A stretch of 64,000 nt of DNA. Source: Methanotrichaceae archaeon. GTDB taxonomy: Archaea; Halobacteriota; Methanosarcinia; Methanotrichales; Methanotrichaceae. Each line of letters begins with the position of its first letter. Positions within the stretch are counted from its first letter, which is position 1. Made by a program: the position numbers and the translations under genes. Under the pieces are notes generated by a model, which made no database searches, was not told the origin of the DNA, and saw only the letters and a list, made by a program, of their open reading frames with translations. This document shows positions 5,531-59,187 of this stretch, piece after piece. The stretch is taken from positions 124,001-188,000 of the forward strand of contig JABLXE010000002.1 in assembly GCA_013178225.1 (NCBI GenBank). The letters are read 5' to 3'.

Positions 5531-5983
5531 TAGGGTAGTGATAGAGTATTTCCCTATTATATCTTTTTTGGTCCTTATTCGCAGCCTAAGACCGTGTTCG
5601 TTCAGCATCAGAGGTCGTCCTGGCCGAGAATTTTTTTGCAATTGAGAAAGAAACGGATTCTGCTATTACTGGGAAAACCGCTCACATTAGGCCGATCTTG
5701 CTGCATGGTGGCCTTTTGATCTGCCCGCTGCAGGCCTAAATAGCCAAGACCTGGGTCCAATCCCAGGCTCGCCAGAAAACGATTTGAAGCAATCGCTCTC
5801 CATAAAGAAATCATGGCCTGCGTTCGAATAATGCGGCTACCAATTATGCAGGGATCTATGACCATCTAATGATTATTTAATCGAAAATCGAGAGTCCAGA
5901 CTCCTTGATGTTAGATCGCCTGATGGCTGAGCACAATCTCAGGAAATAGCTTTTATTTAGTATGTTGTGATATTCAAGTCATC

Positions 5984-16106: not shown

Positions 16107-16847
16107 ATGCGAAAGGAAATAGCTGTTTTGGTTATCATCGCCATGGCCCTGATAGGCATGGCCGGCGCAGCCAACTACATGTATGAGAAGGCGTCGGTTA
16201 AGGGCGTTGGATACAAGAACGTAGAGATGATCATTTCGACCCAGTACGGCTTCTCTGGAGCCAAGCTGGTGGAGAAGGAGTCCGGATCCGGTAACGTGAT
16301 CACCGAGAGGACCGAGCTCGAGGCCGAGAGGCAGGTCAACCACGAAATGACCGACTGCCTCTATAACGGAACATGCGACTGGCCGACTGGCACCTGCTGC
16401 ATGGACTACATCAACTTCACCAAGGAAGCTGAGTTCGAGTACATGCCCGTCTCTTACCAGACCGGCACCTACGACCAGAAGTGGGTTGAGAAGCTGTGCG
16501 TGCAGAACTACAAGATCGGCGCCGTGTTGACCGAGATGTACACTCACGCTGAGCACCTGCAGAAGACCACCGAGGTCAAGACCAGGCTCTACGCAGATGA
16601 TGATTGCTACGCCGCTTGCTGTACCGGTGTTCTCGAAGCCAACCTGAACAGCAACGTGATCGGTGTCGCTCACATCGGCTGGCTCTCCAGGGATCCCCTG
16701 GCCGAGAAGAACCTGAAGGGACGCCACGCTGAGTACGGCAGATCCGTCGAGGACCTGACCGGTGTCTTCTCCATCGAGAAGTTCATCCAGCTGTGGGGCA
16801 ACTCCACCTGTGGCGCTATCAGCGTTGACTGGCTGCCCTGTATTTAA
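16107..16847 (+). CDS. Exported sheath-like surface protein, copy 1
   Basis: A 246-residue exported protein. Residues 1-21 are a signal peptide (hydrophobic VLVIIAMALIGMAGA, cleavage after GAA or nearby). The mature part is beta-rich by composition, with eleven Cys residues, several in pairs (CCMDY, CCTGV). It has a Gly-x-Gly pattern near the start (KGVGYKNVEM, SGSGNVI) and a closing block with GRHAEYGRSVEDLTGVFSIEKF. There is no membrane anchor or sorting tail. It is nearly identical to copy 2 and clearly related to the gene at 20537. A strong ribosome-binding site and long leader suggest high expression. Methanothrix filaments are encased in a protein sheath; this family is a plausible component, but I infer that from context. 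Confidence 0.85.
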   Translation: MRKEIAVLVIIAMALIGMAGAANYMYEKASVKGVGYKNVEMIISTQYGFSGAKLVEKESGSGNVITERTELEAERQVNHEMTDCLYNGTCDWPTGTCCMDYINFTKEAEFEYMPVSYQTGTYDQKWVEKLCVQNYKIGAVLTEMYTHAEHLQKTTEVKTRLYADDDCYAACCTGVLEANLNSNVIGVAHIGWLSRDPLAEKNLKGRHAEYGRSVEDLTGVFSIEKFIQLWGNSTCGAISVDWLPCI

Positions 16848-16858
16848 ATTGAGCAAAT

Positions 16859-16918
16859 AGTAGATATAAACCGGTAAAGCTCCAGGCTCATGTCTGGGGC
16901 TGATATCTATCTTTTTTC
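16859..16918 (+). terminator. Terminator hairpin after sheath-like gene 1
   Basis: Nested inverted repeats TAGATAT/ATATCTA and AGCTCCAG/CTGGGGCT are followed by TCTTTTTT. It begins 12 bp after the stop codon, so gene 1 is probably transcribed on its own. Confidence 0.7.
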
Positions 16919-17130
16919 GCGAGTTTAAAAAATTTAAAGCTGGCATTCCGCCAAACGCATAACCGGGTCATTTTCGTTTAAAAATAACTCTTGTATTAAT
17001 ATTATGGTAATTATGTAAAAAAATGGCACCGGGAAGTCAAATACATCCAAAAAGCTTATAAACTGTGGATGTGCATAGCTAAAACTCATATGCGTTCACA
17101 AAAGAGCACCAACCGGCATTATGCATACTC
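16919..17130. other. AT-rich spacer between sheath-like genes 1 and 2
   Basis: About 210 bp of low-GC sequence (for example TTAATATTATGGTAATTATG) with no open frame supported by a ribosome-binding site. It separates the terminator of gene 1 from the promoter of gene 2. The gene 1 and 2 coding regions are near identical but this spacer shows no repeat of flanking sequence. Confidence 0.4.
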
Positions 17131-17133
17131 GAT

Positions 17134-17421
17134 AGATTTATATGTCATTAATCCAATGGAGATGGATGTGCCTGAGAGACATGCTCAAATATCTGATGCA
17201 AACCACATCATCAGGCGCCTCACACCGGAGAGGGTGGCATACGATCTTTTCGGCTGTCGCAGTCAAGCGCGGCCGAGCCTAGCAGTTTCATCTTTTCTGG
17301 TGGAACGCGCCCAGGCCTTCAGCCTGGGATGCAGCTATCCGGCCGGGGTGATGTACTAAGGATCATAAATGCCGCATAAAGTGGCTTTTCAGATCCTAGA
17401 GTATGAGGAGGTGGGAACGAA
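17134..17421 (+). promoter_or_regulatory. Promoter and long structured 5' leader of sheath-like gene 2
   Basis: The TATA core GATTTATATG lies at 17135-17144, and GTGCCTGAG starts at 17168, exactly 31 bases after the TTTATAT core as in gene 1. The first 60 nt preserve the CCTGA/TCAGG stem, a GAG-7nt-CTC hairpin with a different loop, and CCTCACAC. The downstream part of the leader differs from gene 1 and contains the hairpin CCAGGCCTTCAGCCTGG (about 17309-17326). It ends in GAGGAGGTGGG before the ATG at 17422. Confidence 0.55.
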
Positions 17422-18162
17422 ATGAGAAAGGAACTGACTGTTTTGGTAATTATTGCCATGGCCCTGATAGGCATGGCCGGCGCAGCCAACTACATGTACG
17501 AGAAGGCGTCGGTCAAGGGCGTTGGATACAAGAACGTAGAGATGATCATTTCGACCCAGTACGGCTTCTCTGGAGCCAAGCTGGTGGAGAAGGAGTCCGG
17601 ATCCGGTAACGTGATCACCGAGAGGACCGAGCTCGAGGCCGAGAGGCAGGTCAACCACGAAATGACCGACTGCCTCTATAACGGAACATGCGACTGGCCG
17701 ACTGGCACCTGCTGCATGGACTACATCAACTTCACCAAGGAAGCTGAGTTCGAGTACATGCCCGTCTCTTACCAGACCGGCACCTACGACCAGAAGTGGG
17801 TTGAGAAGCTGTGCGTGCAGAACTACAAGATCGGCGCCGTGTTGACCGAGATGTACACTCACGCTGAGCACCTGCAGAAGACCACCGAGGTCAAGACCAG
17901 GCTCTACGCAGATGATGATTGCTACGCCGCTTGCTGTACCGGTGTTCTCGAAGCCAACCTGAACAGCAACGTGATCGGTGTCGCTCACATCGGCTGGCTC
18001 TCCAGGGATCCCCTGGCCGAGAAGAACCTGAAGGGACGCCACGCTGAGTACGGCAGATCCGTCGAGGACCTGACCGGTGTCTTCTCCATCGAGAAGTTCA
18101 TCCAGCTGTGGGGCAACTCCACCTGTGGCGCTATCAGCGTTGACTGGCTGCCCTGTATTTAA
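17422..18162 (+). CDS. Exported sheath-like surface protein, copy 2
   Basis: 246 residues, differing from copy 1 only at residues 5-6 of the signal peptide (MRKELTVLV instead of MRKEIAVLV). From about base 17518 to the stop codon the DNA appears identical to copy 1. Identity stops at the stop codon, while the ribosome-binding site AGGAGGTGGGAACGAA is shared. That pattern fits recent duplication or gene conversion of the coding region. The mature protein, Cys pairs and C-terminal block are as in copy 1. It may be the first gene of a run with the two related exported proteins that follow, although a hairpin separates them. Confidence 0.85.
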   Translation: MRKELTVLVIIAMALIGMAGAANYMYEKASVKGVGYKNVEMIISTQYGFSGAKLVEKESGSGNVITERTELEAERQVNHEMTDCLYNGTCDWPTGTCCMDYINFTKEAEFEYMPVSYQTGTYDQKWVEKLCVQNYKIGAVLTEMYTHAEHLQKTTEVKTRLYADDDCYAACCTGVLEANLNSNVIGVAHIGWLSRDPLAEKNLKGRHAEYGRSVEDLTGVFSIEKFIQLWGNSTCGAISVDWLPCI

Positions 18163-18170
18163 ATAAAGAA

Positions 18171-18230
18171 CTTGAAAGGCTCGGAGTTTTTCCGAAGCCT
18201 TTTATCCACCTTTTTGGTGGGAAGGGATAA
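18171..18230 (+). terminator. Hairpins between sheath-like gene 2 and the next exported protein
   Basis: AAAGGCTCGGA with TCCGAAGCCTTTT forms a hairpin ending in a T-run, followed closely by a second stem TCCACC/GGTGGGA. The first resembles a terminator; since no clear TATA box follows, partial read-through into the next gene is possible. Confidence 0.5.
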
Positions 18231-18273
18231 TTTCACAATTGTAGTAGCATGAAAATAGGGGGTGAATAGAACT

Positions 18274-19074
18274 ATGAAGGGAGTAGCACTAGCAGCGATA
18301 TTGTTAGTTGCTTTTATGCTCGGATGCTGCGGAATCGTTGTGGCGAATCCACCGATTGTGCCGCCCGTGCAATATGAACAGTTCTGCGAAGCACAGAAGA
18401 TATCCGGAACCGGAGTAATCGATGTCAGCACATCGATCGTTGACAAGAAGATTGCGCTTGAGTATTACAACGTAATGTCAGGTGACGGTGATATCGAGCT
18501 GGATCAGGAGAATGCATACTCGCAGAATGCAGACAAGCTCAAGAGGAACGTAACCGGTGTAAATGGCAGTGACAAGGTCGGCTTGAATCTGTTCGAGAGC
18601 ACCAAGCTCACTTATTCCGGAGCGACGCCCTTGGTTGGCGGAAAATACCTGCATTCCAAGGAGTTCTACGGCGGCATCGGAGCAGAGATCCAGGAGATGT
18701 TCGCGGTAAATGAGATGGAGAAGGAGCAGACCTCGTTCTTCACATCAACCACGCCGTTCGAGCAGATCTACGGCATTGCGCCCGAGGATCTCGGAAAGGC
18801 CCTGAATTGTGCCGGCCGGAACACCGATATGGTTGACGGGCTTATGAGGACCAGCGAGGGAGTCTATATTCCGACACACGTGATCGGGCTGGACACCAAG
18901 AACTCCTTCAACGGAACCTGGGGAACCGACGCGACCTGGCACAAGATATTCTACAAGGACATCAAGGCCCACGAGATGTTCACTGGAAAATTCGAGGCAG
19001 AGAAGCTCTTGAAGTTCCACGAATATCCCGTACCCGAGAAAGAGCGGCAACCGTGTGAAGGCATAGACTGCTAG
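18274..19074 (+). CDS. Exported sheath-family protein, divergent member
   Basis: About 266 residues with an N-terminal signal segment (GVALAAILLVAFMLGCCGIVVA) that includes a Cys pair at the cleavage region. The mature protein shows the same order of blocks as the 246-residue family. It has ISGTGVIDVSTS and SGDGDIELDQE near the start, YGGIGAEIQEMFAV in the middle, and NSFNGTW followed by KAHEMFTGKFEAEKLLKF at the end. Overall identity is low, so this reads as shared fold rather than close homology. I prefer the ATG at 18274, with GGGGGTGA eight bases before it, over the GTG at 18262. There is no anchor or sorting tail. Likely a minor component of the same surface structure. Confidence 0.75.
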   Translation: MKGVALAAILLVAFMLGCCGIVVANPPIVPPVQYEQFCEAQKISGTGVIDVSTSIVDKKIALEYYNVMSGDGDIELDQENAYSQNADKLKRNVTGVNGSDKVGLNLFESTKLTYSGATPLVGGKYLHSKEFYGGIGAEIQEMFAVNEMEKEQTSFFTSTTPFEQIYGIAPEDLGKALNCAGRNTDMVDGLMRTSEGVYIPTHVIGLDTKNSFNGTWGTDATWHKIFYKDIKAHEMFTGKFEAEKLLKFHEYPVPEKERQPCEGIDC

Positions 19075-19112
19075 GGACCACAAAGTCCCCAGCAACCTAT
19101 TTTCTTTTTTTT
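19074..19112 (+). terminator. Terminator hairpin with T-run
   Basis: GGGAC-CACAAA-GTCCC directly after the stop codon, then ATTTTCTTTTTTTT. The next gene starts 18 bp further on, so this may act as an attenuator between the two. Confidence 0.65.
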
Positions 19113-19129
19113 ATATGGGGGGTTGAATC

Positions 19130-20287
19130 GTGAAAGAAGCAATATTTGTGTTAATTCTGCTGGTATCCTGTGCCACAGCCACGGTGGAAGATCCGGGAGG
19201 CGGATCGAGCACAACTGCCTCCAGCGTGTGGAGCGCACAATCAATTCCCGCTCTGCCAAGTGCTTCTGCCATCACCTGTCCTTCAGCATCAGGATTTCTC
19301 AAAGTGGATATTGGGCTGTCCGGACCCAGCTCCGAGGCAGACAAAGAATACGTAACTCAAGGAAAGACGCTGGAGTTCATCGTCACCGTTAAGAACCTAG
19401 GGCAGTCGGATGCGGATGTGGAGCTGGGGGTCTCTACGGACAACTTCTCGCCGGCATGGCTGAGCTGGACCTCCGAGAGCATGACCATTCCGGCAGGTTC
19501 CACCCGTACCTGTACCTTACAAGTAAATCCCGATATCGACGCGTCTCCTGGAGAGTACAATTTCAACGTGGACGCATCCGCTAAATGCTATCGATCGGGG
19601 TCCGCTGGGGCATCCTTCGTGGTTCAGGATTTCGACTATGCGTCAGAGACCGTTGTGAGCGGAACCGGCCAGTTCCAGATCAACAAGAATGTGCGTTCCA
19701 TGAACTCCGGCATCAAGTCCACCAAAGATGTGTTCTTCAGTGGAAGCGTTGATGCCCTGGTGAAAAACGAGTACCTGGTCGATCAATCCAGGGGGAGAAA
19801 TCCCAACTTCGAAGAGCAGGACGCAGTCGACAATTACCAGGCATTGAGTGCGGGAGATGCCCTGACCGGAACTGAGGAGTTCAGAAGTTCTCGGGTCTTT
19901 GGAGGAGTCGGGGCCAAATTCCTGGAGAGCTACAACGTTCAGCAGGTGGAGTTCAAGAACCAGAATCTAAATCTGCATCAGACCGGCTCCCTGAGCAAGT
20001 CTGCCGAGTTCAACACGGCGAACAACTTCACTGGCTACTACCTGATAGACGCCAAGCAGACGATTCCCGGACAGAAGAACTTGAAAGAGCGCGAGGAGTA
20101 CCTAGGGTCCTTTGAGGTAAACCGCAGGATTCTCTTCCGAGATACACCTGAACCTCAGACCTTCTGTTTTGATGGCGATTGCAGCAAGAAGGCCGCTTTA
20201 CCCAAGACTCTATTTACCAGCCCGTGTGTGAGCAGCTCCTGCAGCAACTTCGTGAATAACCTGAACGCCTTCTCCAGTTCGGTCTAA
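19130..20287 (+). CDS. Exported protein with CARDB-like domain fused to a sheath-family domain
   Basis: 385 residues starting at GTG, with GGGGGTTGA in front. A signal peptide (about residues 1-18) and a Ser-rich stretch lead to an Ig-like domain at about 60-160 (FIVTVKNLGQSDADVEL, TIPAGSTRTCTLQV), of the CARDB/surface-adhesion type. From about 170 the protein follows the sheath-family block order: VSGTGQFQINKNV, FSGSVDALVKNEY, FGGVGAKFLESYNVQQVEF, FNTANNFTGYYL and LKEREEYLGSFEVNRRILF. It ends with a Cys-containing, Ser-rich tail and no anchor. It may connect the sheath-like subunits to another layer; that is inference from the added domain. Confidence 0.75.
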   Translation: MKEAIFVLILLVSCATATVEDPGGGSSTTASSVWSAQSIPALPSASAITCPSASGFLKVDIGLSGPSSEADKEYVTQGKTLEFIVTVKNLGQSDADVELGVSTDNFSPAWLSWTSESMTIPAGSTRTCTLQVNPDIDASPGEYNFNVDASAKCYRSGSAGASFVVQDFDYASETVVSGTGQFQINKNVRSMNSGIKSTKDVFFSGSVDALVKNEYLVDQSRGRNPNFEEQDAVDNYQALSAGDALTGTEEFRSSRVFGGVGAKFLESYNVQQVEFKNQNLNLHQTGSLSKSAEFNTANNFTGYYLIDAKQTIPGQKNLKEREEYLGSFEVNRRILFRDTPEPQTFCFDGDCSKKAALPKTLFTSPCVSSSCSNFVNNLNAFSSSV

Positions 20288-20312
20288 ACTCTTTTTAATT
20301 TTTTTTGTTTTC
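20285..20312 (+). terminator. T-rich terminator
   Basis: CTAAACTCTTTTTAATTTTTTTTGTTTT immediately after the stop codon of the CARDB-containing gene. Archaeal RNA polymerase can terminate at T-runs without a hairpin. Confidence 0.55.
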
Positions 20313-20343
20313 ATCTGCAATTTTAAAAAGATTTAGACCTCTC

Positions 20344-20536
20344 TTGCATATAAATAGCCTCCAAAACCTTGAAATAGCATCCACCCAACCAGGTACCTCG
20401 GGTGTTAGGGTTTAAAGGAGAGAAGGTTCAGCCTGGTCCTCTAGCGGTCAAGTCGAGGAATGTCTCGAACTGCGATCGATCGCTTGAAGGAATTCGCCCT
20501 GAAACGGCGTGTCAGGCTACAAGGAGGTAGTGTGGA
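20344..20536 (+). promoter_or_regulatory. Promoter and structured, partly tRNA-like 5' leader of sheath-like gene 3
   Basis: The TATA box CATATAAATAG lies at 20347-20357. The leader of about 155 nt contains CAGGTACCTC, as in gene 1. From 20430 to 20518 AGCCTGG pairs with TCAGGCT (one G-T pair). Inside is a tRNA D-arm-like CTCTAGCGGTCAAGTCGAG, and CGCC-7nt-GGCG follows near the 3' side. The anticodon region does not fit a functional tRNA. The ribosome-binding site AAGGAGG is at 20521-20527. Confidence 0.5.
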
Positions 20537-21277
20537 TTGAATCGAAATTTGATCGTCCTTGGAATTCTCGTGGTTCTACTGGTGGGTGTAGCCGGTGCTG
20601 CCAATTACATGTACGAGAAGTCCTCGGTCAAAGGAGTCGGCTACAGGAACCTGGAGATGGTGGTCTCCACCCAGTACGGCTATTCCGGAGCTAAGCTCGT
20701 GGAAAAGCAGTCCGGTTCCGGTAACGTGATATCGTCGAGGATCGAACTCGAGGCCGAGAGGCAGCTATCGCACGATATGAGCGGATGTCTCTATCCGGAT
20801 TGCTCAGCGGCCTACCCGACCGGTGGGTACTGCATGGACTACATCAACTTCACGTCCGAACAAGAGCTGGAGTACATGCCCGTATCGTATCAGACCGGCA
20901 CCTACGACCAGAAGTGGGTTGACAAGCTGTGCGTGCAGAACTACAGGATCGGCGCTGTGCTGACCGAGATGTACACTCATGCCGAGCACCTGCAGAAGAC
21001 CACCGAGGTCAAGACCAGGTTATACGGTACTGAAACTGAAACCCCATGCTGTACAGGTGTGCTGGAGGCCAACCTGAACGCCAATGTGATCGGTGTCGCT
21101 CACATCGGCTGGCTGTCCAGGGACCCGGTTGGGGAATCCAATTTGAAGGGCCGGCACGCTGAGTACGGCAGGTCTATCGAGGACCTGACTGGAGTCTTCT
21201 CCATTGAGAAGTTCATCCAGCTGTGGGGCAATTCCACCTGCGGCTCAGTGAGCGTTGACTGGCTGCCGTGCCTCTAA
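20537..21277 (+). CDS. Exported sheath-like surface protein, copy 3
   Basis: 246 residues starting at TTG, ten bases after a strong AAGGAGG. Over most of its length it is about 80 percent identical to copies 1 and 2. Differences cluster in the signal peptide, in the loop YPDCSAAYPTGGYC, and at TETETPC, where copies 1 and 2 have DDDCYAAC. The pair CCTGV, the segment VSYQTGTYDQKWV and the closing GRHAEYGRSIEDLTGVFSIEKF are unchanged. Silent substitutions are numerous here but absent between copies 1 and 2. The TTG start and different leader suggest separate regulation. Confidence 0.84.
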   Translation: MNRNLIVLGILVVLLVGVAGAANYMYEKSSVKGVGYRNLEMVVSTQYGYSGAKLVEKQSGSGNVISSRIELEAERQLSHDMSGCLYPDCSAAYPTGGYCMDYINFTSEQELEYMPVSYQTGTYDQKWVDKLCVQNYRIGAVLTEMYTHAEHLQKTTEVKTRLYGTETETPCCTGVLEANLNANVIGVAHIGWLSRDPVGESNLKGRHAEYGRSIEDLTGVFSIEKFIQLWGNSTCGSVSVDWLPCL

Positions 21278-50659: not shown

Positions 50660-53600
50660 TCACGATCCGAACTGGCTGATTCTCACGCAGGTTTGGTTGC
50701 TGACCAGGCAGACGCTAGCATTGTGCTCGGGGTCGAAGACCACTTCTCCACAGGCTATGGCGAAGTTGCACACCTTGCAGGTGCAGTTGTTGCAGTCGAT
50801 ACAACCGTGGCTTCTCTCAATTATATAGCTGCGGCTCTGACCGGCATTGAGAGTTATGCCGGGCCACTGTATAACCCCCAGCAGGGAGTCATTGATGGTA
50901 ATGTTCTCGACTCGTTGCAGTCCGGTGCTGTTTACCTCAATGGTTATATTATACTCCAGCATCTCGCCTGCCTTTGCATCGCTTTCGTTTACCGTTTTGC
51001 TGAGTTCCATATATGGTTGGTTGCAGCTGAAGACCGAGAGCTGGCGATAGCTCTCCACCAGTGCAGACTGCCTCCTTATCAAATCTTCCAGGCTGGCCAG
51101 GAATTTTTTCCAGGCTGTGATTTCAGATTCCTGCAGATCCTGCTGGCTGTAAACCCAATGTGTGAACCTGGTCAATAACGTCTTCTCATAGCCGATACGG
51201 GACTCGAAGTGCTCTAGGAACAGGTCACGATCCTCTTCATCCAGCTGGCAGAACCCGCGTTTGAGCAGATCTTCGTTGCTTGCAAGAATTGCAGCCTGCC
51301 GCCGCAGAAGGTCCTCAAAGCTGTCGGTGAGCAGAACCTTCTCGGTCTGGTTCAGATCCCGCCAGTTGCAAACCACCACATCATCAAAGCCTTCTAAAGC
51401 CTCCTGCTGGCGGGTGGCCAGATCGTCGAAGCTGGCCAGAAACTCCTCACTTTCCTCATCATTCAGAGTGCTATTCTTGAGAAGACTCTCGAAGCTGGAT
51501 ATGAGGTCTGTCTGTCCCCGCAGCAGGTCCTCCAGGCTTTTCAGGTGGAAGAACGCAATTGTCAGAGCCCGGGCCCGTGCGCTATCGTTAGTATAAATGC
51601 ATCCGGTATCGCATATTCCTTCAACAGTTACCTCGTTTGTATGTTCGAAGCCGCAGATGTCCGTTGCTTCGGCGGTCACTTGCGCGGACCAGGTTCCCTC
51701 TCCTGGGGGTACAACCTGGCTGCTCCAGTTGATGGTGGTCCATCCGGGATGCGGCTGGTCGTGAGTGATAGTGCCGTTGCTAGAGGCGACATCTGTGAAG
51801 CCATCTCCCAGCACATCGACTACGCTTACATTCTGTGCCGATTCATCGCCGCTATTGTCCATGTAGATATTCCAGCTGACACTTCCCAAATACTGCACTT
51901 CAGGCTCCTTTCGCACGCTCAGAACCGCTCTCCTGGGAGTAACCGAAATGCTGGTTGATTCCGAATAGATGCTGCCGCAGGAATCCTCAAAGTAAACCGT
52001 CACGGTATTGTCGCTGGTATGGGCTTCATCGCAGCAATTGGGGCAGTTTATGACCTGGAAGGTTATTGTGATCTGTTCACCGCTGTAGATCTTGTCTACG
52101 CTGCTCGCGTTCCAGATCAGAGTCCTGTTTATGGAGCTGTAGTCCTCAGGCTCGGGATTGAAAGTGCGCCCCGGTTGGGTGCTGGTAATGACAGCAGAGT
52201 TCTTCTCATAGACGAAGCCCTGTGGAATCACCTCCGTGATATTGGCCATGGTTGCATTAGCGCCGTCATTTCGGATGCGAATAGTTATCGTGCCCCCGCA
52301 GGTGTTGAGGTTGGCCAGTACCGTCGCATCAATAGACGGACCCACATCCGGGCGGGTTACCAGATAAGACCTGGAGGTGGCGCTCTGTGGGCAGCAAGCC
52401 CAGCTCACGGTGGCATTGTTATGCTGTACCGGTTTGCACTCGGCAACTGTTGCGTTCAGCTTTACCGTCTTCTTCGACCCTACTGCCATATCCCCCAGAT
52501 TCCAGACCAGCGGATCGAGAGCTGTACCGGTCCCACTGCTGTTTGCGGGAAAATCGGAGTGCCAGAACACATTTTCAGGAAGTACATCGTAAAGCGTTAC
52601 ATTTTTGGCAATATAGTCTCCAACGCTGTTTATGCTGATGGTCCACAAAACGATTTCTCCTACATCAGCGTAGATTGTGGACGGCGTCTTGGAAATGGTT
52701 AATCTGGGCTGGAACTTAGATACCGGAACGGTCTTGACCAGCTGCGGGCCGAACCAGCCGCAGGGCTCGGTATAGTTAATGGTAACCGCGGCTACACCGC
52801 CAGCAAAATCGCATGGCCCGGTTACACTGGCATTGAACTTTATGAGGATCTTTGTGCCTGGTTTCAGCCCTTCTGACTGATTGAACCTCCAGATGAGCGG
52901 ATTTCCACCGTAGTCGGAGCTCGTCAGCGTTGCACCGCTTACAATGGGTGTATCGTTGAGCTTAATCCCTGCTGGAAGAAGCTCTCGGACAGTCATGTTA
53001 TACGCGCTAACCAGCCCCCCATTTCTGATCTCAATCAAAAATGGTGCGTTAGAGCCGCAATCGTCTATTCGTCCTGCTTCATGCTTGGCCGCGAAAATCT
53101 GGGAGGATACCAGCTCCACGCGTGAAGAGTCGCTTACATTCTGGCAAACTGCTCCTCCGCAGCCGATGGTGGAATAAACCTCGTTGTCCCGGTTCTCGCA
53201 GCCGCATAAGGTAGCATTTAGCTCAATTAGCATCTGCTGCTTGGGACTTAGATTTCCGAGCCCCCATATCACTCGGTCCGGGCCGCAAGGGTCCGAGCTG
53301 CTGACATCAATGGTGTAAATTCCCGGAACTGATGGGCAGTTTCGCAGACATGTTACGTTAGAGTCAGAGTAGTTCAGGTCGCTGTCCAGGCGGTCCACCA
53401 CGGTCACATTGTAGGCCGTTCCAGAGCCGGTGTTGGCGACATAGATCTTCCAGCTAGCATTTCTGTCCAGAGCGTAGATTACTTCTGGATTCTTTTGGAT
53501 GGTTATATTTCCAAAAGCAAGCAGGGAAGGAGCAGCTGTGGCTGTTCTGACCACTTGTTCTCCGCAGTTGTCGCTGTAATTCAACCGGGCTGTCGCATCT

Positions 53601-56113
53601 ATGTTTGTGGGACAGCGTTTTTCGACAGGGAAGGTAATGGTTCCCCCGCGAGTCACATTCTGGCCCAGGAACCAGCTGAGGTTATTTCCTGATCGGGTGG
53701 GCTCAAAGCCGGTCATAGTCCCGGACTCATTGACGAGGTCCAGGAATTGTGACGGTCCGATGTATCGATAGTTGCTGTCGTTGTAGAGCAAAGACATATT
53801 GTGGGCTATCCAGCGGGGATCGTCGTTAGGGCTGTTCTTATCTATATTCAGCGTGAGATGGAAGGATTTGCATGGAGCCATGATTGAATCAATGCCGCTA
53901 ATGCTCAACGAATAGTCGGCCCGATTTACTGTCACCTCCCCCCCTTCCTGAAAACAGCCTACCCCGGCGCAGTCGGAATCATAGCCAGCCACACATAGCT
54001 GAGACCAATCTATGAAGGACCCCGCTTCAGGCTGGCTTAGGTTGTAAGTTACGTTAAGCACATCTCCGTCTTGCAGAGGTCCGCAGGCCGTCTCCAGAAA
54101 TCCCAGGTTTTTGGAAACTCCCAGCGTAATTGAGGATTGATTGAGGCAAGTGCCGTTGATCACAAAAGTGGCGTTGCCGGTGGGGGAGCCTCCCGGAAAG
54201 ATCTGGCCGTTGCCACCAGCTTCGATGAAGCTGATATCTGACCAGCTTATTCCGGTGGTATTGTTAAAAATATACGTTGTAGTATAATTTATTTCCCGGC
54301 AATTTTCCTGCGGCAAGGGCAGGGCTATTTTATCCGAACTCTTGAGCACGGTATGATTGAAGCACTCCACTACAATAGGCAGGGTGGCGCTGGAGTTGAG
54401 CGGGCAGCCGCAGCAATCCTGGGTGGCGTTAACCTCAAACAGGTTGTTCACCACCAGGCCGCAGTTGCAGACCGATGAGTTAGTGGTAGCCTTCAGGAGA
54501 ACTGTTTTAGACCAGGCTGATGTGTCGTTAAGATCCTGATCGGTCCAGGTAATGCTGTGGTTGGCATGGTCTATGCTGCCTCCATTCGGGTCCACCACCT
54601 CAAAGCTTTGGGGGTAGATGTCCGTTATGGTATTCTCGGGCAGAGAATGCAGATCGCAGTTGCCGGAGTCGTAGGCCACGACAAGATCGTATGATCCTGT
54701 TTGTCCCAGGTATAGGCTCTGATCGCCGCTCTTGCTGGCCGATATGGCGGGCACGGTGTTTGGGTCCATGGAATAGGATACCTGTGATAGGGGAGGATAC
54801 CATTTGTTTCCGCAGTCATCGTAGTAAGTAAGCTGAACGCTAAAGGTTCCCTGATCGTTGACGGCTTCGCAGTCTCCGGTAAGCATCCCGAAATCAAAGC
54901 TGAACTCCTTTTCTTCTCCGCCGGGTATGGTGTCGCCTGGAGGAACATCGCCCAGGTAGAAGGAATTGTTGTTGGGACAGAAGATCGCGCCTACTACATT
55001 GCTGATATGGTAGCGCGTATTAAGGTCGGAAAGATGCATGCAGATCCATGTAGCGTTGCCCAGGCCGACGTTGGTCAAGGTCACCGTAACTGTAGTATTA
55101 TTGCAGTAAGGAACTTCAATAGGTGAGGGATCAAAGACGTAATTCACATCCGGATCTTTGGGCACGAACTTGACGCTGCTCCTGGCATAGGTCTCTTGAC
55201 AGATCTCTGTACATCCCCAGCTTGCATTCACCTCATTGATCAGGTTTTTGCAGCCTATCACCCTGAAGACCGCAGTCTCTGACTCAGTCTCGCCAGGATC
55301 AATCTTGGAATAGGACCAGTTGAGAGAGCCTGACGTTATGGATATAAGCTGCAGGCCCAGGGAGGGAGAATCATTGACTGTTACGTTACAGGCTGGACCG
55401 GTTCCCTGATTTTCTACATTTATGGTCCAGGAAACTACGTCCCACTTTCCTGCCTCCACGACATTCGGCTCCTTGGTCACTTTGAGCAGACCCTGGTTTA
55501 CAAGAATCGAGGCAGACTGGTAATTCAGCGGCTCCTCATTGGAGACGATTTCAGCCACCAGTCGGTTTCCGGAGGGAGTTCCGCATCCAGCGGTGAGGTT
55601 GAACTCGATCTTCAAGTTTTCATCGTCGTCAAGTATCCAGTTGGAGTTGGTCCAGTTGAGGAATGAGCCTGCTGCGACCGGCTCTTGCGAATAGCTTCCG
55701 AGTGGGGAAGTGACCTCGGAGCTTTGCAGGTCATAACTAAAGCCTTCAGGCATGGTCAGGTTCACGGATATATTGCTGGCTGAGGATCCGCTATTGTTAA
55801 TATAGAGTGCATATCGTTCCGAACCACAAATATCCGACTCTGCTGGCACAAGAGAGCTGATCTGCAATGAGGCCGATGCCGCCGGCATGAATATCAGGGA
55901 AAATGTCAAAACCATTAAAAGGCAAATTGCTGAATTTGCTGCCGCAAACCTTCGCTTAACTAATTCATTAATCCTATTCTGATTTTGGCGATGACCGTCC
56001 TTGGAAACCGCTGAGTTCTTCGCGAATATTCGCCGAATAGACTGGATAGTGCCCAGAGCGCATAGTTTTCTAGACCTTCGGTTGCAGATGTCCCTCATGG
56101 CTACTCCCTTCAA
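50660..56113 (-). CDS. Giant exported surface protein: DUF11-like repeats plus SFEDLLRRQ helical domain
   Basis: 1,817 residues. A basic N-terminus is followed by a hydrophobic export segment at about 60-80 (ICLLMVLTFSLIFMPAASA). The region to about 1520 is a chain of Ig-like DUF11-type units of roughly 120 residues, recognisable by repeats such as WTINVENQGTGPACNVTVND, WKIYVANTGSGTAYNVTVVD and WNIYMDNSGDESAQNVSVVD. It is rich in Cys and N-glycosylation sequons. Residues about 1522-1697 hold five helical units built on SFEDLLRRQ. A final DUF11 unit ends in CIDCNNCTCKVCNFAIACGEVV. There is no anchor tail. An inner start at MRDICN is possible. Likely a fibre or sheath-linking protein; the role is inferred. 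Confidence 0.88.
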   Translation of the reverse strand: MKGVAMRDICNRRSRKLCALGTIQSIRRIFAKNSAVSKDGHRQNQNRINELVKRRFAAANSAICLLMVLTFSLIFMPAASASLQISSLVPAESDICGSERYALYINNSGSSASNISVNLTMPEGFSYDLQSSEVTSPLGSYSQEPVAAGSFLNWTNSNWILDDDENLKIEFNLTAGCGTPSGNRLVAEIVSNEEPLNYQSASILVNQGLLKVTKEPNVVEAGKWDVVSWTINVENQGTGPACNVTVNDSPSLGLQLISITSGSLNWSYSKIDPGETESETAVFRVIGCKNLINEVNASWGCTEICQETYARSSVKFVPKDPDVNYVFDPSPIEVPYCNNTTVTVTLTNVGLGNATWICMHLSDLNTRYHISNVVGAIFCPNNNSFYLGDVPPGDTIPGGEEKEFSFDFGMLTGDCEAVNDQGTFSVQLTYYDDCGNKWYPPLSQVSYSMDPNTVPAISASKSGDQSLYLGQTGSYDLVVAYDSGNCDLHSLPENTITDIYPQSFEVVDPNGGSIDHANHSITWTDQDLNDTSAWSKTVLLKATTNSSVCNCGLVVNNLFEVNATQDCCGCPLNSSATLPIVVECFNHTVLKSSDKIALPLPQENCREINYTTTYIFNNTTGISWSDISFIEAGGNGQIFPGGSPTGNATFVINGTCLNQSSITLGVSKNLGFLETACGPLQDGDVLNVTYNLSQPEAGSFIDWSQLCVAGYDSDCAGVGCFQEGGEVTVNRADYSLSISGIDSIMAPCKSFHLTLNIDKNSPNDDPRWIAHNMSLLYNDSNYRYIGPSQFLDLVNESGTMTGFEPTRSGNNLSWFLGQNVTRGGTITFPVEKRCPTNIDATARLNYSDNCGEQVVRTATAAPSLLAFGNITIQKNPEVIYALDRNASWKIYVANTGSGTAYNVTVVDRLDSDLNYSDSNVTCLRNCPSVPGIYTIDVSSSDPCGPDRVIWGLGNLSPKQQMLIELNATLCGCENRDNEVYSTIGCGGAVCQNVSDSSRVELVSSQIFAAKHEAGRIDDCGSNAPFLIEIRNGGLVSAYNMTVRELLPAGIKLNDTPIVSGATLTSSDYGGNPLIWRFNQSEGLKPGTKILIKFNASVTGPCDFAGGVAAVTINYTEPCGWFGPQLVKTVPVSKFQPRLTISKTPSTIYADVGEIVLWTISINSVGDYIAKNVTLYDVLPENVFWHSDFPANSSGTGTALDPLVWNLGDMAVGSKKTVKLNATVAECKPVQHNNATVSWACCPQSATSRSYLVTRPDVGPSIDATVLANLNTCGGTITIRIRNDGANATMANITEVIPQGFVYEKNSAVITSTQPGRTFNPEPEDYSSINRTLIWNASSVDKIYSGEQITITFQVINCPNCCDEAHTSDNTVTVYFEDSCGSIYSESTSISVTPRRAVLSVRKEPEVQYLGSVSWNIYMDNSGDESAQNVSVVDVLGDGFTDVASSNGTITHDQPHPGWTTINWSSQVVPPGEGTWSAQVTAEATDICGFEHTNEVTVEGICDTGCIYTNDSARARALTIAFFHLKSLEDLLRGQTDLISSFESLLKNSTLNDEESEEFLASFDDLATRQQEALEGFDDVVVCNWRDLNQTEKVLLTDSFEDLLRRQAAILASNEDLLKRGFCQLDEEDRDLFLEHFESRIGYEKTLLTRFTHWVYSQQDLQESEITAWKKFLASLEDLIRRQSALVESYRQLSVFSCNQPYMELSKTVNESDAKAGEMLEYNITIEVNSTGLQRVENITINDSLLGVIQWPGITLNAGQSRSYIIERSHGCIDCNNCTCKVCNFAIACGEVVFDPEHNASVCLVSNQTCVRISQFGS
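51023..51550 (-). repeat. Five SFEDLLRRQ units inside the giant surface protein
   Basis: Protein-level repeats of 36-39 residues at residues about 1522-1697. Each unit has the pattern (S/A)xF/LEDLLRRQxxLLxSFExLL, then a loop, then a second hydrophobic helix ending FL. Units 1-5 begin at LEDLLRGQ, FDDLATRQ, FEDLLRRQ, FESRIGYE and LEDLIRRQ. The same array appears in the next two genes. Confidence 0.8.
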
Positions 56114-56266
56114 ATATTTAATCCCTGATGAAATAAATGCATGTAACTATAAATAGTTTTTTACTGTTATGTATTTTAGTGGGTCGAGCAATAAGATGGG
56201 CAAAAAAGGGGAAAATAGATGGACGATGGCCTATTCGGCCATCCTCCAATGTTGGCTGCAATAATC
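56114..56266. other. Spacer between the two minus-strand surface genes
   Basis: 153 bp. On the minus strand an AT-rich run near 56138-56165 (CATAACAGTAAAAAACTATTTATAG) is a candidate TATA region for the giant gene. No open frame. Confidence 0.4.
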
Positions 56267-57394
56267 TTATTTCTTGATACAGTTGGGGCATGAGGCTGTG
56301 CTCACACTATCCTGCACAGCAGTCTCTGCCGCAACTTCCGGATCGGCGCTCTGCTCTGCGGTTACCTCGGCTACAACCTCCTCAGGCACCTCAATTCCCG
56401 GATAAATGTCTTCCAGACCTATATCTCCATCCTCTATTACTGCGCACTGCTGATCGCTGACCACGCAGACTGTGAAGTTGCCGTTTGGAGTTACTACTTC
56501 TCCACAGGCGGTGGCGAAGTTGCATACCCTGCACGTGCAATTGTCACAATCGGCACACGATAGGGTCTGAATTATTTCATAGGGAGTACTGGAAGTTCCT
56601 GCTGGCAGGTAATCAATTTCTCCGATGTCGCCCAGTATCGAGTCAGTGATGGTGATATCTTGCACATCGTTTGTGCCGGCGGTGACTGTGAAGCTGTAGG
56701 TCACATCGTTACCCTCTTGGCCGGTTATCTCCTTGGTGAGCTCAAGATAGGTGGTGTCGCATCGGATCTTCATCAGCATTTCAAAGCTATCCAAGAGGTT
56801 TGCCTGCCTTCGGATGAGGTCTTCGAAGCTTGCTAAGAACTCCATCCAGGTCTCGTATTCGGCTCCTTCATCATCGGTCTCTATCATTTGCTGGAAGTGC
56901 AGCCAGTCTTCGAACTTCTCGTAAAGAATTACCTCGTATTTCAGCCGGGCTTCAAAGCGATCCAAGAGTTCTTTCTTCTGATCCTGGTCTTGGAGTGTGC
57001 AGAAGGACCTCTTCAAGAGATCTTCATTGCTTTCCAGGATTATAGCTTCTCTTCGAATCAGATCCTCATAGCTGCGAGTCAGATTTATTCTCTGCTGAGT
57101 ATCGAGGTCCGTCCAGTTGAAGCTCACCACGTCTTCGAAACTGTACAGGCCGCGCTGCTGTCTGTCTGCCAGATCATCAAAGCTGTCCAGGAACTGGTAG
57201 CTCATGCTATCGTTTAGAGTGGTATTCTTCAGCAGATTCTCGAAGCTGCCGATCAGCACGGTCTGGCTTCTCAGCAGATCTTCATAGCTGGCCATGGAGT
57301 CGTATTCGGCCGCACAGACAAGCCCTCCCATTCCGCTTGTCAGGATCATGAGGGCGACAAAGGCGGCACCTTTGAACGAATTCCGGTATCTCAA
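56267..57394 (-). CDS. Exported SFEDLLRRQ-repeat protein with DUF11 unit and Cys-rich tail
   Basis: 375 residues, essentially a short version of the giant protein's C-terminus. Residues 1-29 are a signal peptide (FVALMILTSGMGGLVCAA). Five helical units (about 33-212) repeat the pattern SYEDLLRSQTVLIGSFENLL, SFDDLADRQQ, SYEDLIRREA, FEARLKYEV and SFEDLIRRQA. One DUF11-like unit follows (LELTKEITGQEGNDVTYSFTV) and ends in CADCDNCTCRVCNFATACGEVV. An acidic tail of about 60 residues ends with CPNCIKK. The ribosome-binding site is GGAGGAAGAGC. No membrane anchor. It probably binds the same partner as the giant protein. Confidence 0.88.
   Translation of the reverse strand: MRYRNSFKGAAFVALMILTSGMGGLVCAAEYDSMASYEDLLRSQTVLIGSFENLLKNTTLNDSMSYQFLDSFDDLADRQQRGLYSFEDVVSFNWTDLDTQQRINLTRSYEDLIRREAIILESNEDLLKRSFCTLQDQDQKKELLDRFEARLKYEVILYEKFEDWLHFQQMIETDDEGAEYETWMEFLASFEDLIRRQANLLDSFEMLMKIRCDTTYLELTKEITGQEGNDVTYSFTVTAGTNDVQDITITDSILGDIGEIDYLPAGTSSTPYEIIQTLSCADCDNCTCRVCNFATACGEVVTPNGNFTVCVVSDQQCAVIEDGDIGLEDIYPGIEVPEEVVAEVTAEQSADPEVAAETAVQDSVSTASCPNCIKK
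56759..57298 (-). repeat. Five SFEDLLRRQ units in the 375-residue protein
   Basis: Residues about 33-212. Unit lengths are 36-43 residues. Positions of Cys in unit 3 (KRSFCTL) and after unit 5 (KIRC) match those of the giant protein (KRGFCQL, VFSC), so the arrays are collinear rather than independently expanded. Confidence 0.8.
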
Positions 57395-57951
57395 AGCTCT
57401 TCCTCCAAATATTTACTCTGTGATCTAACTAATCATATTCTATATATATAAATTTTGTCTTTAATCCTGGGCAACTGCTTGAGAAAATAAACTGCAAGAC
57501 GGTCGAAATCGTTTATGCCTCATATTGGATTTGAAAAGAGATAGTGGATTAACAATCGGAATTTTATAAATATGCATGCGGCTGACTTTGGCTATTGCGG
57601 TTCCTGGAATTAACATGCCGGATGGGTGTTGACCCGGGTCTGAGGAGCGGCAGTTGGGACCTGAAATTATTCTTCCTCTCTTGGTATGGCCTAAATTTGG
57701 GAAAAACATAACAATGTTATGGCTAAAAAAGATTGCAATATTGCTACTTCCTGGGATATTCGAGCCTTGACGAAATTGAATTGCCTGGTATCGCGAGGTC
57801 TTGGGCCGTCTCTTCAGGAAAAAACAATGCCACTCATCGGTTAAATTATGGAAGATTTTTGGGTTGAATAAAATACATATTGTCCCCATGAAACATTTAA
57901 ATCTAAGAAAGTTATTGAAGATATTCGGTAAATAGAATAGGAGCCTGAGAG
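57395..57951. other. Divergent intergenic region, about 560 bp, with promoters at both ends
   Basis: AT-rich. On the minus strand AAAATTTATATATATAGAA at about 57436-57455 is a clear TATA box about 45 bp before the 375-residue gene. On the plus strand ACATTTAAATC at 57893-57903 is a TATA candidate about 50 bp before the next gene. A minus-strand frame of 142 codons lies between (57461-57889). It begins near the opposite promoter and has no ribosome-binding site, so I do not call it. Confidence 0.5.
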
Positions 57952-59187
57952 ATGATGGGCCTGAAACTGATGCTGAGATGGGAATTATGTGCGGCTATCA
58001 TATTGATAGTATTGCCTCTTTCAGCCTTATGTAATGAAGAACCATGCTGTAATATCGGTGCCCGTGACTTCATGAATCTTTCATGGACTCCTGCCGCAAC
58101 AGCTCAAAATGAATCCTTTGATATATTCGCGCTGGGTGAAGAGATAGACCGGCAATGTATGCAGCTTGAGAATAAAGACATCTGCGATGTAACCGATCCT
58201 AATTCGTTGCCACGCTGCATCAGGTTCCTGGACGACTATGAAACGCAGCTCCGGGATCAAGCATTGCTGTTCGATAGCTTTGAAGAGCTGATATTTGAAC
58301 AATGGCCCAGCCTGAGCGAAGAAGAGCGCATCGAATTGACTGCCAGCCTGGAGGATCTGCTGAGAAGGCAAAGCAATTTGCTTTTCCGCTTCCAGCTCTA
58401 CATGAAGAGGCTGTGGTGCCTCCTTGATGCCAAGGATAAGAAAAAATTCATAAATAGTTACGAGGACCTTTTAAAAAGACAGTCGGGTTTGCTTTTAGGA
58501 TTTGAAGACCTGCTGCATTGGCAACAGCAGATAAGAGATTCTAAAATGTTCGATTTCCTGAGCAGCTTTGAAGATCTCATCCGCAGGCAGGCCATATTGC
58601 TGGATACGTTCAGCGATTTCTTAAGCGTCAACTGTCATGCTTTAAAGATCAGCAAAACCATTCAGCCATCCTGTGCCTGCGTCCGCCCCGGCCAGCAAGT
58701 TACTTACTATTATACTATCTCTAATACCGAGAATTATACTGTGAAATGCATCAAAATCATAGATGACCGCCTGGGCTTGATAGCGGAGGGCATAACCCTT
58801 GGTCCTTATGAGAGCCGATCGTTCTCCAAGCAGATAGTAATCGACGAGCCGGTGGGGACTGTCATCTGCAACCAGGCCAGAGTCTACGGAATAGATCCAG
58901 AAGGATTTGCTATCTCTGCCCAAAGCAAGCGGATATGCATACGGGTAATGAGCGCCGCCGCAAATATCGATTCGATCACTACTGGACGGCAGAGGTCGCT
59001 AGCCTTTTCTACAGATCCAGCATCGGCCAGCAATTCTATAGAGATTAAGAAAAACCAAAAAAGAAATTGTTTGTCGAATCTTGATTCTGCAAGCCGGGAG
59101 ATGATTAAAATCGCGGATCAGTCTGCAGCAGCATTCAATAACGCTAAAGCCTCAAACAGCATTAAGATGATGTCTGACCATAATTAA
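57952..59187 (+). CDS. Exported SFEDLLRRQ-repeat protein, divergent orientation
   Basis: 411 residues. A signal peptide (LCAAIILIVLPLSALC) is followed by a Cys-containing segment (EEPCCNIG). Four helical units occupy about 91-228 (YETQLRDQALLFDSFEEL, LEDLLRRQSNLLFRFQ, YEDLLKRQSGLLLGFEDLL, FEDLIRRQAILLDTFSDFL). A DUF11-like unit (about 229-320, QVTYYYTISNTENYTVKCIKI) comes next, ending in CNQARVYGIDPEG. The last 90 residues are a polar, low-complexity tail. The Cys-rich tail motif of the other two is replaced here. It is transcribed divergently from the 375-residue gene, so the set may be co-regulated. Confidence 0.88.
   Translation: MMGLKLMLRWELCAAIILIVLPLSALCNEEPCCNIGARDFMNLSWTPAATAQNESFDIFALGEEIDRQCMQLENKDICDVTDPNSLPRCIRFLDDYETQLRDQALLFDSFEELIFEQWPSLSEEERIELTASLEDLLRRQSNLLFRFQLYMKRLWCLLDAKDKKKFINSYEDLLKRQSGLLLGFEDLLHWQQQIRDSKMFDFLSSFEDLIRRQAILLDTFSDFLSVNCHALKISKTIQPSCACVRPGQQVTYYYTISNTENYTVKCIKIIDDRLGLIAEGITLGPYESRSFSKQIVIDEPVGTVICNQARVYGIDPEGFAISAQSKRICIRVMSAAANIDSITTGRQRSLAFSTDPASASNSIEIKKNQKRNCLSNLDSASREMIKIADQSAAAFNNAKASNSIKMMSDHN
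58222..58635 (+). repeat. Four SFEDLLRRQ units in the 411-residue protein
   Basis: Residues about 91-228. The first unit is degenerate (YETQLRDQ), and one unit present in the other two proteins is missing. KRLWCLLD aligns with KRGFCQLD of the giant protein, keeping the internal Cys. Confidence 0.78.

Follow-up and report, generated by a model that had tools for sequence, protein, structure and literature searches.

Methanothrix-type archaea account for much of the world's biological methane and inhabit resistant protein tubes in anaerobic granules. How exported proteins that carry no anchor could be held at such a sheath is the question raised by three neighbouring genes of a Methanotrichaceae archaeon (GCA_013178225.1), and no additional protein could be tied to sheath or plug formation (PMC11576556). 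The genes lie in a window of 64,000 nt, the whole stretch of DNA analysed (contig JABLXE010000002.1, positions 124,001-188,000, forward strand). An earlier note on this DNA had described proteins of 1,817, 375 and 411 residues sharing an array of four or five units of about 36-43 residues; open reading frames and a unit HMM bear this out, with five, five and four units whose starts are spaced by 35-43 residues. The interval it gave, 51023-58635, starts with the first gene's array and stops with that of the third, whereas the genes themselves span 50660-59187:

50660..56113, minus strand: protein A, 1817 aa (ORF, Pfam, unit HMM and hydropathy)
50840..51019, minus strand: DUF7507 match of A, residues 1699-1758, after the array (Pfam)
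51023..51553, minus strand: array of five helical units in A, about residues 1521-1697, with Cys1622 and Cys1697 (unit HMM and alignment)
56267..57394, minus strand: protein B, 375 aa (ORF, alignment and AlphaFold2)
56435..56746, minus strand: predicted beta-sandwich of B, residues 217-320, with a sub-threshold DUF7507 match (AlphaFold2 and Pfam)
56759..57298, minus strand: array of B, residues 33-212, with Cys132 and Cys212 (unit HMM and AlphaFold2)
57952..59187, plus strand: protein C, 411 aa, in divergent orientation to B (ORF, Pfam and unit HMM)
58225..58638, plus strand: array of C, residues 92-229, four units, with Cys156 and Cys228 (unit HMM)
58969..59184, plus strand: C-terminal tail of C, two units G-x-Q-x-A...N-x-I-x-I-x-K-x-Q (sequence comparison)

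Protein A comprises a signal-like N-terminus, seven DUF11-type repeats, the five-unit array near its C-terminus, a DUF7507-like domain and a Cys-rich tail; its start codon is uncertain, as the signal-like segment starts near residue 55. Protein B consists of a signal peptide, a five-unit array, a beta-sandwich, a Cys-rich segment (CADCDNCTCRVCNFATAC) and a C-terminal CPxC motif, while C is built from a signal peptide, a four-unit array, a DUF7507-like domain and a GxQ...N...Q tail. As had been proposed, all three appear to be exported without an anchor: hydropathy gives each a single hydrophobic segment, which is N-terminal, and no later membrane span, and Pfam detects no PGF-CTERM anchor in A, B or C. 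A DUF11-type domain had also been attributed to all three, and this part stands for A only, where DUF11 (PF01345) scores above cut-off (155 bits, E 1e-45, seven stretches); B and C give only sub-threshold DUF7507 matches, although B models as a beta-sandwich.

At window positions 56267-56560, B orthologues end with a conserved C-P-x-C, and the pattern CxDCxNCTCxVCNFAxACG is common to B and A; this region of B is probably a disulfide or metal-binding element. The CxxCxxCxCxxCx5C pattern conserved in A and B, together with the terminal CPxC of B orthologues, could mark A and B as redox or metal-binding surface proteins, for example in electron uptake. We regard this as very improbable, because these cysteines are not part of the array and neither C nor most family members have them, haem motifs and known metal motifs are lacking, and the documented role of sheath cysteines is disulfide cross-linking.

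The shared unit is about 37 residues long, and over 115 units its consensus reads F-L-x-S-F-E-D-L-L-R-R-Q-A-x-L-L-x-S-F-E-x-L-L-K. The unit HMM, seeded by hand-picked units and then iterated, recovers five units in B (i-E 1e-9 to 6e-14), four in C (1e-9 to 5e-12) and four in A plus a weak one (unit 4, visible in the alignment). In whole-array searches within the window's own genome, B matches A at E 1e-78 (50% identity) and C at E 4e-26 (38% identity), and no array locus other than A, B and C was found. The similarity of the three arrays is far beyond chance, and the unit order and the internal Cys motif, R-x-[FYW]-C-x-L, are conserved, as the earlier note had stated. Hydrophobicity across the 115 units is maximal at 102.9 degrees, the heptad period, and heptad sequences may look alike through composition. 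Convergent coiled-coil composition in place of homology is nevertheless contradicted by the sequence evidence, and we practically dismiss it: the A-B match at E 1e-78 is accompanied by conserved unit order, a matching Cys pair, and an adjacent DUF7507-like domain and Cys-rich tail common to A and B. The array genes are under purifying selection, with dN/dS about 0.1-0.3 where dS is not saturated, synonymous change thus exceeding non-synonymous change.

Each unit had been taken for two helices separated by a loop. AlphaFold2 gives one long helix per unit in two models instead: what had been read as a second helix is the latter half of this one plus the beginning of the next, and the F-L belongs to the first turn of that next helix. 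In B, helices are modelled at residues 31-56, 62-92, 99-131, 137-167 and 178-209, followed by the beta-sandwich (shallow alignment of 12 rows, mean pLDDT 72, about 70-88 over the array, pTM 0.61); a four-unit relative is modelled as four helices and a sandwich (shallow alignment of 17 rows, pTM 0.38). Each unit is accordingly predicted, on these models, to form a single helix of 26-35 residues.

The cysteines indicate how these helices may be arranged. Of 26 arrays, 19 have a Cys at +28 of unit n-2 together with a Cys at +27 of unit n, and six have neither; the one other array has the first in place and the second at +30 (Fisher p 3e-5). The co-occurrence holds when each 60%-identity cluster contributes a single array (16 clusters, p 9e-4); clustering at 50% leaves only eight clusters, and the test loses its power (p 0.14). 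One of the paired positions ends helix n-2 and the other lies just past helix n. In an up-down bundle, helices n-2 and n point the same way, and their ends lie at one pole; a disulfide there would be natural, and this speaks against the extended rod that had been envisaged and for neighbouring helices in a bundle. We infer a disulfide linking the end of helix n-2 to that of helix n, for which Cys1622 and Cys1697 are the putative pair in A. The array would then be a self-contained extracellular bundle of four or five antiparallel helices, one per unit, stapled by this disulfide.

Conservation within the unit is uneven. S4, E6, D7, R10 and R11 rank with the best-conserved positions (0.8-2.3 bits of entropy), and positions 14, 17 and 21 of the second heptad are less conserved (3.3-3.8 bits). 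Burial of these polar residues is not required by a bundle, so their conservation suggests an interface.

No Pfam or NCBIfam model scores above its curated cut-off over any array. The best matches in a PDB profile search are designed antiparallel helical proteins (8qad, E 3e-6; 2lse, E 8e-3), and among the Foldseek matches listed, none that spans the array reaches a query TM-score of 0.5. Homology of B to STAT, its best Foldseek match by E-value, was rejected at a TM-score of 0.19. The string 'SFEDLL' was not found in the literature searched. The array is an undescribed domain family, without a match to a solved natural protein family or fold, as had been suspected: the known repeat family that would have spoken against this did not appear in the Pfam, NCBIfam, PDB-profile or Foldseek searches. 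The type of system, namely modular archaeal surface and sheath proteins, is already known.

Of 50 Methanotrichaceae genomes, 11 encode array proteins, about 26 in all, and six of 11 genera are represented. Beyond the family, searches of 238 genomes of the class and of a sample of 393 from the phylum gave none. A scan of genome collections returned seven loci, all in Methanothrix/Methanotrichaceae-type MAGs; it used strict peptide patterns from a 4-row subset, the 19-row alignment being too diverse, so distant relatives may escape it. A viral or plasmid origin was rejected, there being no relatives in IMG/VR, phages or plasmids. The array is absent from three isolate genomes, M. thermoacetophila PT, M. 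soehngenii GP6 and M. harundinacea (which we take to be G046, G015 and G010, respectively), and this would account for the family being unstudied. The A-B-C block is found again in G030 and G036 and, in part, in G024 and G027, with CorA and Lrp-type genes alongside; the window's block has other flanks, and it is shared with another genus. In contig 100 of G025 (L042:1-15000), six array genes are clustered around a DUF11 protein of 1843 aa, with at least three architectures: DUF11 then array, array-DUF7507-tail, and array-DUF7507-SH core.

The array appears to be an optional part of the giant stalk. Residues 65-1514 of A align at 41% identity with a 2086-aa protein of G003, and the alignment ends just before the array, whose first unit begins at residue 1523; the G003 protein lacks an array and carries further DUF11-like repeats instead. 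Adjoining the G003 stalk gene, L044:14016-14696 encodes a secreted protein of 226 aa that is array only. That array and stalk are fused in one genome and adjacent in another suggests that they work together. Related stalks without arrays also occur in G008, G010 and G011. In G002, a single in-frame stop (L043, about 5759-5913) separates the stalk and array parts, through an assembly error or in reality. Another secreted DUF11-like type found in array clusters (L044:13073-13885 and L042:3882-4778) ends in one or two degenerate array-like helices (YEGIIKNQSYRLQTFEDLLHQAW; YEEMIRIQANRL).

An array of this kind could be no more than a rigid spacer, or a building block linked by disulfides, that lacks any specific partner, as its low-complexity, coiled-coil-like pattern and its best matches to designed antiparallel helical proteins might suggest. 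A spacer would hardly be expected to keep its unit order, unit-specific signatures and conserved surface motif, to exist as a stand-alone secreted form, or to sit in a conserved three-gene block, and we consider this reading unlikely.

The last 72 or so residues of C and its relatives form two GxQxA...NxIxIxKxQ units. A profile of this tail matches an undescribed group of small secreted proteins (about 140-180 aa), many of them encoded in tandem; 39 of the 50 Methanotrichaceae genomes have a match, and no Pfam or NCBIfam family covers these proteins. These small proteins contain Cys and two G-N/R-x-x-A...N-N-x-x-I-x-x-N-Q units, and are found at L119, L120, L121 (for example, L121:2350-2814), L122, L124, L125 and L126. 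The tail was also considered as a piece of the SH fold, and this was rejected because hhalign shows no similarity.

The link to the sheath comes from three relatives in which the array is fused to an SH core (L042:6166-7632, L047:1637-3103 and L038:12099-13811), in the order array, DUF7507-like domain and a C-terminal domain of about 215 aa. The C-terminal domain, or SH core, is found in all 50 Methanotrichaceae genomes, mostly in multiple copies. In SH proteins the core has two six-stranded beta-sheets; the AlphaFold2 model of an array-fused relative renders the domain as strand-rich, at low confidence (pLDDT about 35). The fused core is 48% identical over 246 columns to L100:8891-9706 of G046 (271 aa). 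We identified the latter by gene order: Mthe_0677 is an S-layer duplication protein (PMC10470525), as is L105:2049-4211 (PF07752, E 3e-177), and counting genes back from it (HDAC, CCA, thpR, ilvD, symporter, geranylgeranyl reductase, S6e and a regulator, names read from the ORFs) would make L100:9904-10635 Mthe_0668 and L100:8891-9706 Mthe_0667, although an RNA or a missed small gene could shift the count by one. Mthe_0667 and Mthe_0668 are adjacent, are the two most transcribed SH proteins, and their ring has been modelled (PMC11576556). SH caps point outward and serve as platforms for surface functions (PMC11576556), and in M. hungatei neighbouring hoops are joined via caps (PMC10593813). 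Fusion to a core homologous to the presumptive Mthe_0667 places the array, as judged from sequence, as the cap domain of the three SH-fused relatives.

The window contains sheath genes of its own, among them the following feature:

18262..19074, plus strand: SH protein homologue, 56% identical to the presumptive Mthe_0667; its core is the array's fusion partner in the three relatives

It belongs to a sheath-protein gene cluster at 16107-21277, which also holds three near-copies of a 246-aa protein like the presumptive Mthe_0668 (16107-16847, 17422-18162 and 20537-21277) and an Ig-plus-SH protein (19130-20287); a regulator gene adjoins the cluster, as in M. thermoacetophila PT. The cluster lies about 29 kb from the array genes, and this proximity is not counted as evidence. 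Elsewhere, L103:3658-5409 joins an SH core to a domain that by eye resembles von Willebrand A, apparently another unlisted cap type. The SH core has no match in A, B or C, and no SH protein of the window's own genome carries an array; A, B and C are not covalently sheath proteins, and their location at the sheath, with no array-capped SH partner in their own genome, is presumed. The module is missing from 39 of the 50 family genomes and from the three cultured species, and so is not needed for the sheath. Taken together, the earlier note was right about a real, undescribed, all-helical repeat domain in exported Methanothrix-type proteins and about a sheath link, and wrong about the two-helix unit and the rod; it was silent on the SH fusions, the optional array on the giant stalk and the window's sheath gene cluster.

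We propose that, on the Methanotrichaceae cell surface, the SFEDLL array acts as a movable module, which would form a cap when fused to an SH core, the end of a stalk when placed on a giant DUF11 protein, and a soluble partner when alone or joined to a small beta-domain. The array may dock or cluster sheath-associated surface proteins, possibly by direct contact of arrays along their conserved polar face, E-D-x-x-R-R, and such docking would hold unanchored exported proteins in or on the sheath. A sheath-related role in surface assembly is somewhat probable, and a movable bundle module that docks or clusters sheath-associated surface proteins is the best explanation at hand, with an even chance of being correct. 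Homotypic docking of arrays is a more tentative suggestion, rather doubtful as it stands. Just as speculative is its fuller form, in which arrays interlock via E-D-x-x-R-R and so bind giant DUF11 stalks, array-only adaptors and small curlin-like proteins to array-capped SH proteins, a docking code reinforced by disulfides.

Adhesion to other cells is the main rival. Here the array would be a binding head for syntrophic bacteria, neighbouring filaments or polysaccharide, with DUF11 as the stalk and the SH fusion as display. A DUF11 stalk is a typical adhesin feature, caps with Ig-like domains have been put forward as sheath adhesins (PMC11576556), and the distribution of arrays is patchy, multi-copy and fast-diverging. 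An adhesive surface would normally be expected to vary, yet in the unit the polar face shows strong conservation between paralogues, and the stand-alone array protein (L044:14016-14696) has neither stalk nor anchor; we judge the adhesin reading to be improbable. On the preferred reading, the movable docking module would help to explain how anchorless surface proteins are held at the sheath, and it supplies named candidates, a domain boundary, a predicted disulfide and a natural SH-subunit fusion for the question of sheath membership.

Several known systems bear comparison. SH proteins (Mthe_0667/0668 and the M. hungatei SH protein, Mhun_2271) and the array fusions are both exported, modular and Cys-containing, and the M. 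hungatei SH cap is partly helical too; SH proteins have the SH core, whereas A, B and C of the window do not. The Methanothrix caps listed in PMC11576556 comprise none, a single helix, beta sheets, Ig-like and carbohydrate-binding domains, in contrast to a repeated domain of four or five helices. Among giant surface proteins and adhesins with DUF11 (PF01345), A has a DUF11 stalk shared with its orthologues in G003, G010, G008 and G011, but the array lies outside DUF11, and the array-less G003 stalk goes on with DUF11 repeats. Like B, the STAT-type core has long helices followed by a beta-sandwich (a helical bundle and an Ig-like barrel), but with a TM-score of 0.19, an rmsd of about 21 A and 8-11% identity, this is an architectural echo only. 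The de novo bundles and barrels 8qad and 2lse follow the same heptad logic of antiparallel helices and, being artificial, cannot share ancestry with the array. The tail of C resembles curlin (CsgA) in its short repeats, spaced G, Q and N, alternating hydrophobic residues and occurrence in small tandem secreted proteins, a likeness by eye only, with no Pfam curlin match for C or the small tail proteins. If real, the array docking code would be loosely like a cohesin-dockerin scaffold, decorating the sheath non-covalently.
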